A stretch of 64,000 nucleotides of DNA from an uncultured Candidatus Entotheonella sp. (GCA_951828535.1 OX639990.1:173300-237299); one strand, 5' to 3'. Positions 6,195 to 15,762 are shown, counted from the first letter of the stretch. The notes: generated by a model from the sequence alone, not told the origin. Program-made: numbers and translations.

Positions 6195-7532
6195 ATGGTC
6201 TATAAAGCCTATTCGGTTTCCTGGAACCTCACGCAGCGGTGCAACCTGTTTTGCGCGCACTGCTACATCAGCGCTTCCGCGGGCGCCGACGCTGCAGACG
6301 AATTGACGACGGCTGAGTGCTACCGCGTGATGGACGATATCGCCCGCGTCAATCCGAGCATCTTTCTCATCCTTACCGGCGGCGAGCCGCTGCTGCGCAA
6401 GGATATATTTGACTTGGCGGCTTACGGGGCGGAACGGGATTTCACGGTCGTTCTGGGTACGAACGGGGTGCTGGTGCGCGAGAAGCAGGCCAAGCTGATG
6501 CGGCAGAGCGGCGTCCTCGGCGCCTCAATCAGTCTGGATTCCACGCGCGCCGACAAGCACGACGCCTTTCGCCATCAGGCCGGCTCCTGGGAGGGTGCTG
6601 TGCGGGCGACACGGGTCTTGAAGGACGAGGGCCTGGACTTCTCGTTGCACATGTCGGTGACCGACTGGAACGTCGACGAGATTCCGGCGATGGTCGATCT
6701 GGCGAACGACCTGGGCGCCAACGTGCTCAATTTCTTCTTTCTGGTGCGAACCGGGCGGGGCGAGAACCTGACGGATATCAGCGCGGAGCAGTACGAGGCG
6801 ATCCTGACGGCCTTGGCGCGTGCCCAAGGGGTTGGCGAAGACGGCGACACGGAGGCGACATCGGTTTTCAGCCAGCAGGAAGATCCGTGGAGCATGCCGG
6901 TCGGCGCGGCGGGCAAGCTCCTCATCCGCGCCAAGTGCGCCCCCCACTTTCGTCGCATTGTCTGGGAGCTCGATCCCAGCTCGCCGCTGCTCAAGAATTA
7001 CGCCCACGGCTCCTGCCCGGCCGGCAAATACTACTGCCGTATTACGCCGCGCGGCGATGTGACGCCGTGCCCCTATATGCCGGTCGTGGCGGGCAACCTG
7101 CGTCAGACGTCGTTCGCCGATCTGTGGGGTGGGTCCGACGTTTTCCAGGATCTGCGGGAGCCGGAACTAGGCGGGCGCTGCGGTCCGTGCGAGTTCAGCA
7201 AAATCTGTGGCGGCTGCCGCTGCCGAGCCTATGCCACCTATGGCGATTATCTGGCCGAAGACCCTGCTTGTTCCTATCAGCCGGGTCAGCACGGTGGTCA
7301 GGTGATCGAGCTTCCGGCATCGCAAACATTCGGCCTGGAGGTGAAGCCGGAACTGGTTTGGCAGCCGGCGGCCCGCGAGCGGCTGAAGGCGATTCCGTCA
7401 TTCGCCCGCGGTATGGTGGTGAAGGGTGTAGAAGCCTATGCTCGCTCGCAGGGTTACCGGGAGATAACTTCTGAGCTGTTGACCGAGATTCGCCAAACGT
7501 GGGGTGCGCGATTCCGTCCCAGACGGTCGTGA
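6195..7532 (+). CDS. Radical SAM/SPASM protein with C-terminal PCP-reductase-like domain
   Basis: A 445-residue radical SAM enzyme. The AdoMet cluster motif is CNLFCAHC (Cys16, Cys20, Cys23) and the GGEPLLR motif follows. The C-terminal half carries a SPASM-type cluster region (CPAGKYYCRITPRGDVTPC and CGPCEFSKICGGCRC), resembling NirJ/AhbC/AhbD proteins of heme d1 and alternative heme synthesis. After it, residues about 387-440 (AARERLKAIPSFARGMVVKG...) look like the small light-independent protochlorophyllide-reductase C-terminal domain (PCP_red). The next gene encodes a second such domain. The substrate is unknown: tetrapyrrole modification or peptide modification are both possible. No heme d1 or nitrite reductase gene is adjacent. 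It follows acs by 18 bp and probably shares its transcript. Confidence 0.8.
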   Translation: MVYKAYSVSWNLTQRCNLFCAHCYISASAGADAADELTTAECYRVMDDIARVNPSIFLILTGGEPLLRKDIFDLAAYGAERDFTVVLGTNGVLVREKQAKLMRQSGVLGASISLDSTRADKHDAFRHQAGSWEGAVRATRVLKDEGLDFSLHMSVTDWNVDEIPAMVDLANDLGANVLNFFFLVRTGRGENLTDISAEQYEAILTALARAQGVGEDGDTEATSVFSQQEDPWSMPVGAAGKLLIRAKCAPHFRRIVWELDPSSPLLKNYAHGSCPAGKYYCRITPRGDVTPCPYMPVVAGNLRQTSFADLWGGSDVFQDLREPELGGRCGPCEFSKICGGCRCRAYATYGDYLAEDPACSYQPGQHGGQVIELPASQTFGLEVKPELVWQPAARERLKAIPSFARGMVVKGVEAYARSQGYREITSELLTEIRQTWGARFRPRRS

Positions 7533-7595
7533 GCATCGCTGCCCCTTGTTGTTTCATGCGATAGACAGAGTTCCCCGTATAAGGAGACAGTGAAC

Positions 7596-8006
7596 ATGCC
7601 GAGCACGGAGGCCACGGGGCTTGAAAGCCGTCTGGACGCCATGCAGGAGCAATTGGCGCGCGTGCAGGAATTGTTGGTCGGTTTTTCGCAGCAGCTTGAG
7701 CAACAGCGCGTCGATACCGGTAAGGTCAACGAGAGCATCCAGCATTGGGTGACGGATTACGTTTCCCTGCGGCTGCAGGAATTGGTGCCGCACGCCTGCG
7801 AGCATGACGACGAGCCGGCGGCGGCGGACGGCCCATATTTGCCTGGCACCTCGGTTCCTTGTACCGAAGACGTGGTGCATCGTGTTGGGCGCATTCCCAT
7901 TCCGTTTGTGCGTCAGATGGTGGTTCAGAAAGTCGCCGAGCAGGCCCGGCAGGAGGGTGCAGTGCGGGTCGACGTCGCCTTCTTTGAACAGGCGGCGACC
8001 TTCTGA
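7596..8006 (+). CDS. Stand-alone PCP-reductase-like domain protein with N-terminal coiled coil
   Basis: A protein of 136 residues. The N-terminal third (LDAMQEQLARVQELLVGFSQQLEQQ) has heptad-like spacing suggesting a coiled coil. The C-terminal 40 residues (VGRIPIPFVRQMVVQKVAEQ...) repeat the pattern of the PCP_red domain seen at the end of the upstream radical SAM protein: Ile-Pro, Phe-Val-Arg, then an amphipathic helix. I chose the ATG at 7596, which lies 9 nt after AAGGAG; a GTG at 7590 is too close to that site. It is probably a partner or scaffold for the radical SAM enzyme; this is inference from domain sharing and adjacency. Confidence 0.7.
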   Translation: MPSTEATGLESRLDAMQEQLARVQELLVGFSQQLEQQRVDTGKVNESIQHWVTDYVSLRLQELVPHACEHDDEPAAADGPYLPGTSVPCTEDVVHRVGRIPIPFVRQMVVQKVAEQARQEGAVRVDVAFFEQAATF

Positions 8007-10015: not shown

Positions 10016-10033
10016 CTCTCGCGCTAGCGAGAG
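10016..10033. other. Intergenic hairpin
   Basis: Seven-base arms CTCTCGC and GCGAGAG separated by GCTA lie between the carboxypeptidase stop and the DUF1800 start. No T-tract follows, so a classical intrinsic terminator is not supported; it may stabilise or process the mRNA. Confidence 0.3.
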
Positions 10034-10075: not shown

Positions 10076-11485
10076 ATGGTAGACAATCACGACATCGGAT
10101 TGATGGCCCACCTCATGCGCCGGGCTGGCTTCGGTGCTCCCCGTGAGGAATTGGAGCGCCGCGCCGCTAAAGGCTATGAGGCAACGGTGGAGGAGTTGAT
10201 TCATCCCAAAACCACCGAGCCGGCGGACGAATACACCCTGCTGCGCTACCAGCCGGCCGCTCTGCTGCCGGGCGGCATGCCGCCGATGGGCAACGTCAAC
10301 TGGATGTTCCATATGGTGAACACCCAGCGGCCCCTTGAGGAGAAGATGGCGCTCTTCTGGCATCACGTCTTCGCCACCGGCAATTCCAAGGTGGACAATT
10401 ACGACCAATTGCTGGCGCAGATCGCCATGTTCCGGCAGCGTGGCATGGGCAATTACCGTGACCTGTTGGTGGCCCTGGCCAAGGACCCGGCGATGCTTTA
10501 CTGGCTGGACAACAACGAGAACCATAAAGACGCCGTGAACGAGAACTGGGGGCGGGAGCTGTTGGAGCTGTTCAGCATGGGGCAGGGAAATTACACCGAG
10601 AAGGACGTACGCCAGGCGTCGCGCGCCTTCACCGGCTGGACGTTCTCGGTCAAAATTCCGCGCCTGCCGTACGGCCGTTTTCCCTGGGAGTTCGAGTACG
10701 TTGCGGAGGACCACGACGACGGCGAGAAGGAATTTCTGGGTCACACCGGCAATTTCAATGGCGAAGACATCATTGATATCGTCGTGCAGCAGCCGGCGTG
10801 CGGCCATTTCATCGCTCGCCACTTGTACAACTTCTTCGTGGCCGACGAGCCGCAGGTGCCGAGCTGGAAGATCAACCTGCCACGCGACGAGGCGGCGGTG
10901 GCGGCATTGGCCGACACTTTCCACGAGTCGGGCTACGATATCGCAGCGATGCTGACCACCCTTTTCACTTCAGACTTCTTCAAGGAAGCCTACTTCACGA
11001 AGGTGAAGAGCCCGGCGGAGCTGGTTGTCGGCACCCTGCGGCTGGTCGGTGGCGCCGAGTTGCCGCGTCCCGATTACGGCCGCGACGTGGCCCTGCAGCC
11101 AACCTACATGGGCCAGGACTTGCTCAACCCGCCGAGCGTGGAGGGGTGGCATACGGGCAAGGAATGGATCAACAGCGGCTCGCTGATGAGCCGTATCAAC
11201 TTCGTTGCCGAGATGGTCGGCAGCACCGATCTGCCTGGCGTGCAGGACATGATCGGTCGCCTCAGGGCCAAGGGTCCACTCGATCCCGATGCCTTTGTAG
11301 ATAGCTGCCTGGACCTGATGGGTCCGCTCCAGGTGGGCACGGATACCAGGCAGGAGCTGCTGGAGCAGGCCCGCGAGGGCGGCTCGCTGGCCTGGGACAC
11401 GGCGGACGAGGTCGAGGCATCGGTAGTGCGGGTCGGCGAGATGCTGCAGTTGATCGTCGCCATGCGCGAGTATCAATTCAACTAA
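10076..11485 (+). CDS. DUF1800 family protein
   Basis: A 469-residue DUF1800 protein starting MVDNHDIGLMAHLMRRAGFG, the typical N terminus of this family, with later family features KMALFWHHVFATG, NENWGRELLELFSMG and QDLLNPPSVEGWHTGKEW. The ATG at 10076 follows AGGAGAAGG. Its molecular function is unknown. DUF1800 genes are habitually followed by DUF1501 genes, as here (54 bp downstream). Most such pairs carry Tat or Sec signals, but no signal peptide is visible here, which suggests a cytoplasmic location. A hairpin separates it from dacC, so it may start a new transcription unit. Confidence 0.88.
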   Translation: MVDNHDIGLMAHLMRRAGFGAPREELERRAAKGYEATVEELIHPKTTEPADEYTLLRYQPAALLPGGMPPMGNVNWMFHMVNTQRPLEEKMALFWHHVFATGNSKVDNYDQLLAQIAMFRQRGMGNYRDLLVALAKDPAMLYWLDNNENHKDAVNENWGRELLELFSMGQGNYTEKDVRQASRAFTGWTFSVKIPRLPYGRFPWEFEYVAEDHDDGEKEFLGHTGNFNGEDIIDIVVQQPACGHFIARHLYNFFVADEPQVPSWKINLPRDEAAVAALADTFHESGYDIAAMLTTLFTSDFFKEAYFTKVKSPAELVVGTLRLVGGAELPRPDYGRDVALQPTYMGQDLLNPPSVEGWHTGKEWINSGSLMSRINFVAEMVGSTDLPGVQDMIGRLRAKGPLDPDAFVDSCLDLMGPLQVGTDTRQELLEQAREGGSLAWDTADEVEASVVRVGEMLQLIVAMREYQFN

Positions 11486-11539
11486 CCAGCCACTAAGGCG
11501 TGTGTCACGCCTGAACCGTAACAGGGGAGAGATTCAGTT

Positions 11540-12673
11540 ATGGCAGAGAAAAAAGAACCCGTTCTGGTCGTGTTGCAGTTGAGCGGCGGCAATGACTATC
11601 TGAACACGATCATCCCGTACGCCAATTCGCTTTACTGGGACAACCGCCCGGCGGTGAGTATTCCCGAGGATCAGATCATCCCGATTGATCAGGCCCTGGG
11701 TTTCAACCCGAGCATGGAAGCCCTAAAGCCAATCTACGACGCCGGTGACATGGCCGTCATCCACGGCGTCGGCTATGCCAATTCGCCGCGTTCGCACTTT
11801 CGCTCCATGGACATCTGGCACACCTGCGAGCCGGATACCGTCGGCACGGAGGGCTGGCTGGGCCGCGCCCTGCGGGACATCGACCCCAACAAAGAAAATG
11901 TGGTGACCGGTGTCAGCTTCGGCCCGAGTATGTACCGCGCCATGGCGCTGCCCGGCGTCCCCGTGGCCTGCGTCAGCGGCGACTTGGAGACCTACGGCAT
12001 GCTGCCGGGAATCGAGGGACAGCAGCGCCTCAAGGTGCTCGAGCGCTTCAAGAACGCCTACGCCCCGGCCATCGGTCTGGGCGCGGTGATGGATTACATG
12101 GGCCAGACGGGCCTCGATTCCATGGCCGGCGCGGACGTTCTCAAGGCGGCGCCGCAGCGCTACCAATCGAGCGTCACGTACCCCGACTCCAAGGTGGCCC
12201 GCAAGCTGCGCGGCGTGGCGCAGGTGCATACCGCCGAGGTGGGCACCCGCGTTTTCTATCTGGACCACGGCAGCTTTGACACGCACGCCAGTCAGGGCGG
12301 CGAGCATGCCAAACTGTGGCGCGAGGTTTCGGAAGGTGTCAGCGCTTTCTTCTCCGACCTGCGCGAGCACGATGCCGCTGACAATGTCGTGATGCTGGTT
12401 TTCACTGAGTTCGGGCGCCGGGTGCACGACAACGGCTCCGGTACCGACCACGGCGCCGGCGGCGTGGCGTTCGCCATTGGCGATCCCGTCAAGGGCGGCA
12501 TGTACAGCGAATACCCGTCGCTGAAGGCCGAGGACCTGACGCAGGGCGATCTGATGCCGAACCAGGATTTCCGTGGGGTGTACACCACGCTACTGGAAGA
12601 CTGGTTGGAACTGGATGCCCCGTCGATTGTCGGTGGCACCTTTGAGAGTCCGGCGTTCATCGCCAAGGCGTAG
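11540..12673 (+). CDS. DUF1501 family protein without Tat signal
   Basis: A 377-residue protein of the DUF1501 family, which is related to the alkaline phosphatase/sulfatase fold. Visible signatures are LQLSGGNDYLNT near the N terminus, YANSPRSHFRSMDIWH, the HGSFDTHASQ segment, and FTEFGRRVHDNGSGTDHGAG near residue 300, with the usual Asp and His ligand candidates. The family normally begins with a twin-arginine signal; here the protein starts MAEKKEPVLVVLQ and enters the first beta strand at once, so export by Tat is not expected. It pairs with the DUF1800 protein upstream and is followed 12 bp later by an NHL protein. Substrate unknown. Confidence 0.88.
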   Translation: MAEKKEPVLVVLQLSGGNDYLNTIIPYANSLYWDNRPAVSIPEDQIIPIDQALGFNPSMEALKPIYDAGDMAVIHGVGYANSPRSHFRSMDIWHTCEPDTVGTEGWLGRALRDIDPNKENVVTGVSFGPSMYRAMALPGVPVACVSGDLETYGMLPGIEGQQRLKVLERFKNAYAPAIGLGAVMDYMGQTGLDSMAGADVLKAAPQRYQSSVTYPDSKVARKLRGVAQVHTAEVGTRVFYLDHGSFDTHASQGGEHAKLWREVSEGVSAFFSDLREHDAADNVVMLVFTEFGRRVHDNGSGTDHGAGGVAFAIGDPVKGGMYSEYPSLKAEDLTQGDLMPNQDFRGVYTTLLEDWLELDAPSIVGGTFESPAFIAKA

Positions 12674-12685
12674 AAGGAAGCATCC

Positions 12686-13705
12686 ATGCTGACTACCGTA
12701 ATCGCTGGGCGGGTCTATGATTTCAGCCACTCCGTCGGCCGTAACGCCGCGGCCGGCGATGGGTTCTCCTACCCCTGCGCCATCGCGCTGGCGTCGCAGG
12801 GGGTAATGTACGTTGTCAGTCGCGGTAACGAGACGAACTACGGCTCGCGGCTTACCAAGGTGTTCGTCGGCGAGCCGGGTGAGGAGAAAGTGCTCGCCGA
12901 GTTCTATCGCTATGGTTCCAACCCTGGGCAGGGGTTGTGGCCCAATTCCGTGGCCCTGGACAAGCAGGGGCGGGTTTATGTGTCGGACGACTGGCTGAAC
13001 CGCATCGCCGTGTTTGACGCCGACGGTAATTTCATCGAGCAGTGGGGCACGGCGGGAGCCGGTCCCGGCGAGCTCGACGGCCCCGCCGGCTTGGCCTTTG
13101 ATGCGGATGACCAACTCTACGTGGTCGACAGCCGCAACCATCGCGTGCAGGTGTTTACCCCGGATGGCAAGTACGTGTCGGGCTGGGGCTCCCATGGCAG
13201 CGGCCCCGATCAGTTGGACACCCCATGGGGCATCCACATCGACACGCACGGCGGCGTTTATGTAGCCGACTGGAAAAACGGTCGGGTGCAAAAGCGCGAT
13301 CGCAACGGCCAGGTCATGATGCAATTCGGGCAGCCCGGCGACGGCCCGCGTGACCTCAACCACCCGACCAGCGTTGCCGTGGATGCGGACGACGATGTCT
13401 ACGTGGCCGATTGGGGGAACCACAAGCTGCGCATCTATCGGCCTGATGGGGATCTGATTACGTCCCTGATCGGCGACGCGCAGTGGCTGTCCAAGTGGGG
13501 CCAGCAGTCGATCGACGCCAATCCCGACATGGCCAAGATGCGCCGCCGGGTGAAGAGCCTGGAGCCCGAATGGCGCTTCTACTACCCCGTCGCCGTGGCG
13601 TTCGACGCAGAGCGGGATTTGATCATCGTGGCGGATTGCCAGCGCGGTCGCCTGCAGCTCTACAAGAAGGACAGGAACTACGCTGTCCCGCAGGCGAACC
13701 TGTAA
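12686..13705 (+). CDS. NHL-repeat beta-propeller protein
   Basis: A 339-residue protein built from five to six NHL repeats. Repeats are visible as alternating NSVALDKQGRVYVSDDWLNR, GLAFDADDQLYVVDSRNHR, GIHIDTHGGVYVADWKNGR and SVAVDADDDVYVADWGNHK blocks, each followed by a short strand with a Gly-Trp-Gly or Gly-Gln-Pro turn. NHL propellers bind proteins, RNA or ligands; some are peptidyl lyases. There is no signal peptide. The position between DUF1501 and a GlcF-like protein, with gaps of 12 and 3 bp, indicates one operon. The GAAGGAAG site supports the ATG at 12686. Confidence 0.85.
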   Translation: MLTTVIAGRVYDFSHSVGRNAAAGDGFSYPCAIALASQGVMYVVSRGNETNYGSRLTKVFVGEPGEEKVLAEFYRYGSNPGQGLWPNSVALDKQGRVYVSDDWLNRIAVFDADGNFIEQWGTAGAGPGELDGPAGLAFDADDQLYVVDSRNHRVQVFTPDGKYVSGWGSHGSGPDQLDTPWGIHIDTHGGVYVADWKNGRVQKRDRNGQVMMQFGQPGDGPRDLNHPTSVAVDADDDVYVADWGNHKLRIYRPDGDLITSLIGDAQWLSKWGQQSIDANPDMAKMRRRVKSLEPEWRFYYPVAVAFDAERDLIIVADCQRGRLQLYKKDRNYAVPQANL

Positions 13706-13708
13706 GTC

Positions 13709-14992
13709 ATGGCGCAGTCGTCGGCCTTACGGAACACGCTTCAGCAGGCTGAGACGAGTTGCATCAAGTGCGGCTTCTGCTTGCCCGTCTGCCCCACCTA
13801 TAACCTCACCGGCAGTGAAGCGGCGTCGCCCCGCGGCCGCATCGCCATGATGGTCGCGGTGGCCGACGGCGATCTTGAACCCGAGGACATCTTCACGTCC
13901 CTCGATCTTTGCCTCGGCTGTCGCGCCTGCGAAACGGCCTGTCCGGCCGGGGTGGAATTCGGCCGGCTGTTGGAGGCCGGGCGCACTGCTGCGGCTGTCG
14001 GACAGCCTGCATCGCGTTTCGGCGACTGGCTGCACCGGCTGTTCATGGAACGCATCCTGCCGTCCCCGCGTCGTTTGAATCGATTGGCCAGCCTCTTGCG
14101 TGTGTACCAGGCCAGTGGCGTGCAGGCGCTCGTGCGCTTGAGCGGCCTGCTGCCCCGGCTGGCACCAAGGCTTGCCATCATGGAAGCTCTCCTCCCTGCC
14201 GTCCCCCCTGCGAGGGCGCGTCAATCCCTGCCAATGGAAACGCCCGCGTACGGCGAGGAGCGCGGCCGGGTGGTTTTGCTCACGGGTTGCGTGACGCCGC
14301 AGGTTTTGCCGCAGGTAAATCGTGCCACCGTGCGGGTGCTGGCGCGGAATGGCTACCGTGTCCTGGCTACCCCGGCGCAACCCTGCTGCGGGGCGTTGCA
14401 GGCACATGCCAATGACTTGGAAAGCGCGCGGCGGCTGGCGCGGCGCCACATTGCCGCGTTTGAAGCGAGCGGGGCGGATTGGTTGGTGGTCAACGCCGCG
14501 GGCTGCGGGGCGTTAATGAAGGACTACGGCCACCTGCTGGCTGACGACCCCGATTTTGCGGCGCGTGCGGAGACCTTTGACGCCCGCGTGCGCGATGTCA
14601 GCGAGCTGTTGGCTGCTGTTCCACTGCGGGAACCTTTGCAATCCGTGCCGTTAAGGGTGGCGTACGATGACCCGTGTCACCTGTCGCATGGGCAGCGGAT
14701 CCGCCAACAACCGAGGGAATTGCTGCGGCAGGTGCCGGGGCTGGAACTCTTGGAGGTTCCCGAAAGCGACTGGTGTTGCGGCAGCGCCGGCACCTTCAAT
14801 CTTTTTCATCCGGAAACGGCCGGGGCGCTTCTCGACCGCAAAATGGCTCACCTTGCATCGGTGCGACCCGATGTTGTCGTCAGCGGCAATCCGGGCTGCC
14901 TCCTGCAACTGCGCCAAGGGGCTGCGCGGCATGGACTGGCCGCCGAAATCCTCCACCCGATCGAGATGCTGGACCGTGCCTACAGGACGTGA
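13709..14992 (+). CDS. glcF: GlcF-like iron-sulfur protein (glycolate oxidase Fe-S subunit family)
   Basis: A 427-residue electron-transfer protein with two [4Fe-4S] motifs, CIKCGFCLPVCP (Cys18, 21, 24, 28) and CLGCRACETACP near residue 70, then two CCG (heterodisulfide-reductase type) domains with CCGALQAH and CCGSAGTFN motifs. This is the layout of GlcF of glycolate oxidase. The partner flavoproteins GlcD and GlcE are not encoded next to it; the gene sits in an operon with DUF1800, DUF1501 and NHL genes, so its electron donor may be something else. The name is a family assignment, not proof of glycolate oxidation. Confidence 0.8.
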   Translation: MAQSSALRNTLQQAETSCIKCGFCLPVCPTYNLTGSEAASPRGRIAMMVAVADGDLEPEDIFTSLDLCLGCRACETACPAGVEFGRLLEAGRTAAAVGQPASRFGDWLHRLFMERILPSPRRLNRLASLLRVYQASGVQALVRLSGLLPRLAPRLAIMEALLPAVPPARARQSLPMETPAYGEERGRVVLLTGCVTPQVLPQVNRATVRVLARNGYRVLATPAQPCCGALQAHANDLESARRLARRHIAAFEASGADWLVVNAAGCGALMKDYGHLLADDPDFAARAETFDARVRDVSELLAAVPLREPLQSVPLRVAYDDPCHLSHGQRIRQQPRELLRQVPGLELLEVPESDWCCGSAGTFNLFHPETAGALLDRKMAHLASVRPDVVVSGNPGCLLQLRQGAARHGLAAEILHPIEMLDRAYRT

Positions 14993-14997
14993 AGGCC

Positions 14998-15762
14998 ATG
15001 GGACGCAAGCGACGAAAATCCCGCCCTCCTATCCTTGCCACCGCACCGCAAGAAGAAGATTTCCACAGACCCTTCAGTGAGGTGAGGGAAAAACTACGCG
15101 AGGTTGCAACGCGGCCTGTCTCCACCGCATCCACGCCAAAGTCTGCCCCTGCTCCGCATCGCCAAATGCCCGACCCCACGTCCAGGCAGGCACCTGACAC
15201 TGCTCACGAACAGGCACGTCGGGAGCGGGCGTTGTTCCTGTCCGAGATGGCCGGCGTAACGCCCCTGCGCAAGGATCCGCGCGGGCAGGTGGACAGGCCG
15301 CGTCCGCAACGCAGGGTCAGCGCCTACCAGGACCCGGACGCCCTGGACGAGTTACGTGACCTCGTGGAAGGGCGCGGCGCTTTTTCCATTCAGTGCACCG
15401 ATGAATACATGGAGGGCGTGGCGCCGGGTGTCGATCATCGCCTGGCTCAGCGCCTGCATCGCGGCGATTTTGCCGTGCAGGCGCAGTGCGACCTGCACGG
15501 CCACACGGTTGAAGAGGCGAAGATTGCCATGCAGCGGTTCGTGACGCAGGCACACACCGCCGGGCAGCGCTGCGTGCGCGTCATCCATGGCCGCGGGCGC
15601 AACTCCAGAGAAAATCGCCCCGTCCTCAAGGAACAGGTGCAACTCTGGCTATCCCACGGACGCCTGAGTCGTCTGGTGCTGGCGTTTGCCACCGCGCCGT
15701 TGACTGACGGCGGCGCCGGCGCGGTCTACGTGTTGCTGCGCCGCGCCTCCAGACAGCGTTAA
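14998..15762 (+). CDS. Smr-domain protein (DNA endonuclease SmrA-like)
   Basis: A 254-residue protein. A charged, Pro-rich and probably disordered N-terminal region of about 140 residues leads to a C-terminal Smr (MutS2-type) nuclease domain: CDLHGHTVEEAKIAMQRFV carries the LDLHG-type motif and CVRVIHGRGRNS the HGxG motif. It resembles E. coli SmrA/SmrB, which cleave nucleic acids (SmrB cleaves mRNA on collided ribosomes). I placed the start at the ATG 14998, 5 bp after the glcF stop; the same frame is open much further upstream but that part lies over glcF. Confidence 0.85.
   Translation: MGRKRRKSRPPILATAPQEEDFHRPFSEVREKLREVATRPVSTASTPKSAPAPHRQMPDPTSRQAPDTAHEQARRERALFLSEMAGVTPLRKDPRGQVDRPRPQRRVSAYQDPDALDELRDLVEGRGAFSIQCTDEYMEGVAPGVDHRLAQRLHRGDFAVQAQCDLHGHTVEEAKIAMQRFVTQAHTAGQRCVRVIHGRGRNSRENRPVLKEQVQLWLSHGRLSRLVLAFATAPLTDGGAGAVYVLLRRASRQR

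Follow-up and report, generated by a model that had tools for sequence, protein, structure and literature searches.

Sequence evidence for a leaderless DUF1800–DUF1501–NHL trio in Candidatus Entotheonella and SAR202 bacteria, with a displaced glycolate-oxidase-type GlcF gene beside it

Four closely spaced genes of an uncultured Candidatus Entotheonella sp. raise the question of which of their products belong to one functional unit and what this unit does. The genes lie in a stretch of 64,000 nucleotides (the window) from a genome that consists of a single 3.6-Mb contig (G000), and the original prediction interpreted them as an operon for an intracellular redox complex. An ORF and Pfam check returned the same four open reading frames, with the families, coordinates and gaps that had been predicted, and a fifth gene directly behind them:

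10076..11485, + strand: DUF1800 protein, 469 aa, leaderless (Pfam PF08811, 2.8e-105)
11540..12673, + strand: DUF1501 protein, 377 aa, leaderless (Pfam PF07394, 1.9e-23)
12686..13705, + strand: NHL beta-propeller, 339 aa, leaderless (3.8e-35), the third member of the trio
13709..14992, + strand: GlcF, with two Fer4 motifs and two CCG domains
14998..15762, + strand: Smr-domain protein, which also follows GlcF at the related locus L014

The intervals between these genes are 54, 12, 3 and 5 bp, and the Smr-domain gene is probably unrelated to the cassette. The DUF1800 protein matches its family over the full length (residues 12-467) with 353 bits against a curated cut-off of 26.1, and the DUF1501 protein reaches 83.7 bits against a cut-off of 27, with the best stretch at residues 227-332. 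The nearest public match of the latter, 93% identical, is on the uncultured Candidatus Entotheonella chromosome OY282375.1. Elsewhere in the window, positions 6195-8006 encode a NirJ/AhbD-like radical SAM protein that carries a PCP_red domain at its C-terminus; the protein encoded next, of 138 aa, matches PCP_red weakly.

To identify the conserved unit, we used the 80 best DUF1501 relatives, selected by similarity to the query; many of them come from MAGs, and their loci span Chloroflexota/SAR202, Rokubacteria, Entotheonella, Alphaproteobacteria and Acidobacteria. DUF1800 adjoined DUF1501 at all 80 loci, and NHL was next to DUF1501 at all 77 loci where this could be tested, the other three contigs ending less than 300 bp from DUF1501. 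GlcF was present at one of the 80 loci (L014). Thus, a genome search for the proposed four-gene set found DUF1800-DUF1501-NHL to be widespread, whereas the version with GlcF was confined to the window and the 93%-identical locus L014 of genome G001, that is, to one genus. Judged by these gene neighbourhoods, what is conserved as a unit is the leaderless trio of DUF1800, DUF1501 and NHL.

The paralogues within single genomes point in the same direction. G000 has six DUF1501-DUF1800 pairs: an NHL gene accompanies each of the five leaderless ones, and the Tat-led sixth pair lacks one. Five of the nine NHL genes in G000 are in these trios. As only about 1% of the genome is no more than about a kilobase away from an NHL gene, five such associations out of five would arise by chance with a probability of roughly 1e-10 (a rough estimate). 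The gene order is 1800-1501-NHL in three trios, 1800-NHL-1501 in one and 1501-1800-NHL in one, and the same members in different orders suggest functional linkage rather than inherited synteny. Eight SAR202 genomes carried 3, 4, 8, 9, 10, 10, 11 and 14 DUF1501 copies, indicating paralogue expansion; NHL was found within 1.5 kb of DUF1501 in 28 of the 30 inspected copies, and neither NHL nor DUF1800 was found within that distance in the remaining two. In G001 (C1:2289569-2289884), DUF1800 and DUF1501 fragments of 56-84% identity lie in different frames and are probably a decayed copy of the trio. At 35 SAR202 loci (within L016-L061; e.g. L022:7511-7834), a gene for an acidic protein of ~108 aa without a Pfam match directly follows NHL. 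This protein, absent from the Entotheonella and Rokubacteria loci, is possibly a fourth subunit in the SAR202 clade.

The original prediction had described DUF1800 and DUF1501 proteins as normally exported pairs that lack signal peptides here. The second part of this statement was borne out: leaders were assessed from upstream stop codons and from hydrophobicity and RR motifs, with Tat-led homologues as controls, and by these criteria neither window protein has a signal peptide. The DUF1501 frame in the window has an in-frame stop six codons before the ATG, and the relatives have the identical leaderless start with in-frame stops close by, which rules out a misread start that hides a Tat leader. 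In a 71-row DUF1501 tree, all 48 leaderless proteins formed one clade with an SH-aLRT support of 100. The first part holds for DUF1501, since those control loci of other families in which the N-terminus could be read had an RR/KR motif with a hydrophobic leader and no nearby NHL of the trio type, but not for DUF1800: no more than roughly a third to one half of the control pairs had a DUF1800 with a leader. Among the Tat-led pairs of L193-L211, for example, DUF1800 is often without a leader, and these pairs are possibly exported as a DUF1800-DUF1501 complex in a piggy-back manner. As a leaderless DUF1800 in a Tat-led pair fits binding to DUF1501 before export, it supports direct contact between the two proteins.

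The redox proposal included GlcF, which had been noted to occur without GlcD and GlcE. Indeed, no such partners are adjacent, but an orthologous GlcD-GlcE pair is present in G000 (C1:2301695-2304420), 2.1 Mb from GlcF, and no GlcF gene was found within the 12 kb examined around this pair. The same arrangement exists in G001: in both genomes the GlcD-GlcE pair lacks GlcF (L157, L158), which instead stands behind the trio. The window GlcF scores 307 bits against the NCBIfam equivalog NF008434, below its cut-off of 333. Its orthologues in sister genera (63-65% identity) are encoded inside contiguous GlcD-GlcE-GlcF operons (G003:C278, L159; G002:C8, L160), the GlcF and GlcD trees are concordant, and the window GlcF groups with the GlcF of these intact operons (support 100/99). 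G000 also has an intact second GlcDEF set (L161), and the trio of the sister genus G003 (L162) has no GlcF. On this phylogenetic and positional evidence, the window GlcF is the iron-sulfur subunit of a glycolate-oxidase-type GlcDEF enzyme that has been displaced from GlcD-GlcE and stands outside the conserved trio. Since D-E-F are contiguous in the sister genera and D-E stand alone here, either GlcF moved or the operon was split in the Entotheonella genus.

This bears on the proposal of a redox complex inside the cell, assembled from all four products, in which GlcF would pass on electrons from a DUF1501/DUF1800 reaction. The 3-bp distance between NHL and GlcF, their probable co-transcription and the preservation of this layout in two species of the genus are in its favour, as is the unrelated locus L081, where genes for rubrerythrin and a further CCG iron-sulfur protein come after the trio. 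However, 79 of the 80 trio loci, including that of G003, lack GlcF, its orthologues belong to GlcDEF operons, the orphan GlcDE pair of the same genome needs a GlcF, and DUF1501 is predicted to be a hydrolase (see below). We consider such a redox complex highly improbable: as the missing third subunit of the distant GlcDE pair, GlcF provides no evidence for it, and the sister-genus operons, the trees and the trio loci oppose GlcF as a fourth member of the cassette.

Which reaction, if any, could DUF1501 catalyze? The original prediction offered a hydrolytic or a dehydrogenase function, and the predicted fold is consistent with the former and lends no support to the latter. No solved relative of DUF1501 or DUF1800 was found by sequence. 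The AlphaFold model of DUF1501 (pLDDT 87.9) gave 268 Foldseek matches in the PDB at E<=0.001 (E down to 1.8e-7, probability 1.00), and the best 50 of them were sulfatases, LtaS, YejM, MCR-1 and other proteins of the alkaline phosphatase (AP) superfamily. TM-scores to the nearest AP-superfamily structures were modest, about 0.4, with about 10% identity; in 11 of the 54 DUF1501 members, weak matches to Pfam Sulfatase point in the same direction. Residues S85, H86, D247, H249, E290, R293, D303 and H304 are invariant in all 54 members, Tat-exported homologues included, and D19 is kept in 53. Along the predicted fold, D19 comes after strand 1, followed by S85-H86 at a helix start, D247-x-H249 and D303-H304, which we take to be the order of the ligands and the nucleophile in the AP superfamily. 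By fold order and conservation, Ser85 is likely the nucleophile, and Asp19, Asp247, His249, Asp303 and His304 are likely metal ligands. The model suggests that DUF1501 most likely acts as a hydrolase or transferase that depends on metal. It has a predicted fold in common with sulfatases, LtaS and MCR-1/EptA-type transferases and has invariant Ser and Asp/His residues, but differs from those enzymes in its cytoplasmic location and its distant relationship.

The DUF1800 model is all-helical (pLDDT 92.4) and had no fold match in the PDB (best E 1.7). DUF1800 is weakly similar to PSD1/DUF1553 and PSD2/DUF1585 (21 of 47 members, best 7e-5), and no homology between DUF1800 and DUF1501 was detected. 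Mean identity to the window proteins was 66% for DUF1501, 64% for DUF1800 and 47% for NHL; the faster divergence of NHL is what would be expected of the part that sets specificity.

Apart from the trio itself and the ~108-aa protein of SAR202, the only neighbour shared across loci was a Fur-family gene; no shared metabolic neighbour was found. At 12 trio loci, the cassette is preceded at a distance of 27-304 bp by a Fur-family gene in the same orientation: five of these loci are in Chloroflexota (perhaps two lineages), four in Rokubacteria, one in G003 of the Entotheonella family (L015) and two in Alphaproteobacteria, where the gene is IrrA above the curated cut-off at both. Four of the eight SAR202 genomes have another Fur gene immediately behind the NHL gene of one trio. 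Boxes of the TTAGAA-N3-TTCTAA type, presumably PerR-box/Irr-box-like, occurred in seven upstream regions compared to 0.64 expected. They are perfect at four Chloroflexota loci, immediately before fur, and have one or two mismatches between Irr and DUF1800 at both alphaproteobacterial loci; in the seventh region (L086), where no Fur gene was found, the box has two mismatches. The presence of Fur-family regulators in several lineages suggests that the cassette probably responds to metal or peroxide status. Neither a Fur gene nor a box adjoins the majority of trios, including all five of G000, and no Fur-type box was found before the window DUF1800 with up to three mismatches; Fur-family regulation may be specific to some trio copies. 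An imperfect hairpin at ~10016-10033 was dismissed as a conserved element, as it is not kept in L014. At L081:5854-13212, genes for Irr, DUF1800, DUF1501, NHL, rubrerythrin, the CCG iron-sulfur protein and DUF3501 follow each other in one direction, and at four Rokubacteria loci (L042:5223-5885, L064, L066 and L069) a gene for a ferredoxin and HbpS-like fusion lies closely upstream of the fur-trio cluster.

The Fur/Irr linkage and the lack of a constant metabolic neighbour would also suit an inactive cytosolic sensor or scaffold, in which a binding-only AP-fold protein, DUF1800 and the propeller are coupled to metal or redox regulation. We regard this as improbable, since the conservation of S85, D247, H249, D303, H304 and D19 described above is unlike that of a typical pseudo-enzyme. 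Alternatively, the trio could carry out a catabolic step for hard-to-degrade dissolved organic matter (e.g. sulfate or phosphate esters), with a different substrate for each paralogue and with Fur being incidental. The 3-14 paralogues per SAR202 genome fit this, as do the frequent neighbours (SDR, CoA-transferase, MmgE/PrpD, LLM monooxygenase and MFS proteins, named by eye from sequence) and the appearance of the three families beside other expanded SAR202 COGs in the relevant passage of PMC6946804. The neighbours vary by locus, however, and many of them belong to a single syntenic SAR202 locus; moreover, the fact that separate lineages repeatedly show linkage to different Fur subfamilies is hard to dismiss as incidental. 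We consider a purely catabolic role rather unlikely.

We slightly favour the interpretation that the trio is a cytosolic metal-dependent hydrolase or transferase complex, probably metal- or peroxide-responsive in several lineages, and that GlcF is an unrelated passenger. We infer complex formation, catalysis and regulation as follows. DUF1800, DUF1501 and NHL would form a soluble cytoplasmic complex in which DUF1501 would act on a phosphate, sulfate or related ester by hydrolysis or transfer. DUF1800 would be its obligate helical partner, needed for activity or assembly, and the faster-evolving propeller would select the substrate, i.e. what the complex binds. A PerR/Fur-like regulator, or Irr in Alphaproteobacteria, would control the cassette in several lineages, and expression would track metal, haem or peroxide status in some of them.

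COG4102 corresponds to DUF1501, and we take COG5267 to be DUF1800 and COG3391 to be the propeller family. A Tat-exported DUF1501-DUF1800 pair (COG4102/COG5267) occurs beside bacterial chitin synthase genes (PMC5122149). It shares with the trio both Pfam families, their adjacency and the invariant DUF1501 residues; in contrast, the trio has a DUF1501 without a Tat leader, an additional NHL protein, a separate clade and many paralogues per genome. The planctomycete-specific PSCyt/PSD gene pairs (PMC5615132) resemble the trio in the weak similarity of DUF1800 to PSD1/PSD2, in their unassigned function and in their high copy number, whereas the trio has no cytochrome c domain, is leaderless and has an NHL partner. 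In a correlation analysis of the most abundant SAR202 COGs, Saw et al. (2020) list COG3391, COG4102 and COG5267 together as uncharacterised; that passage makes no mention of a single leaderless cassette or of regulators (PMC6946804).

DUF1501 and DUF1800 are large families of unassigned function, and the trio represents a distinct cytosolic form of them that adds a third partner and a hint at regulation. Placing GlcF outside the system removes a false lead, and the trio proteins, being soluble and without export signals, are suited to expression and assay. From the passage in PMC6946804, its three COGs appear to be the trio, which would explain why these uncharacterised families are listed jointly in SAR202, abundant deep-ocean bacteria. 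Tentatively, and with less than even confidence, we suggest that an unrecognised cytosolic enzyme trio, made up of an AP-fold hydrolase, a new-fold DUF1800 protein and a substrate-setting propeller and controlled via Fur-family proteins according to metal or peroxide state, may be one of the main paralogue expansions in SAR202 and Entotheonella and may lie behind the three COGs.
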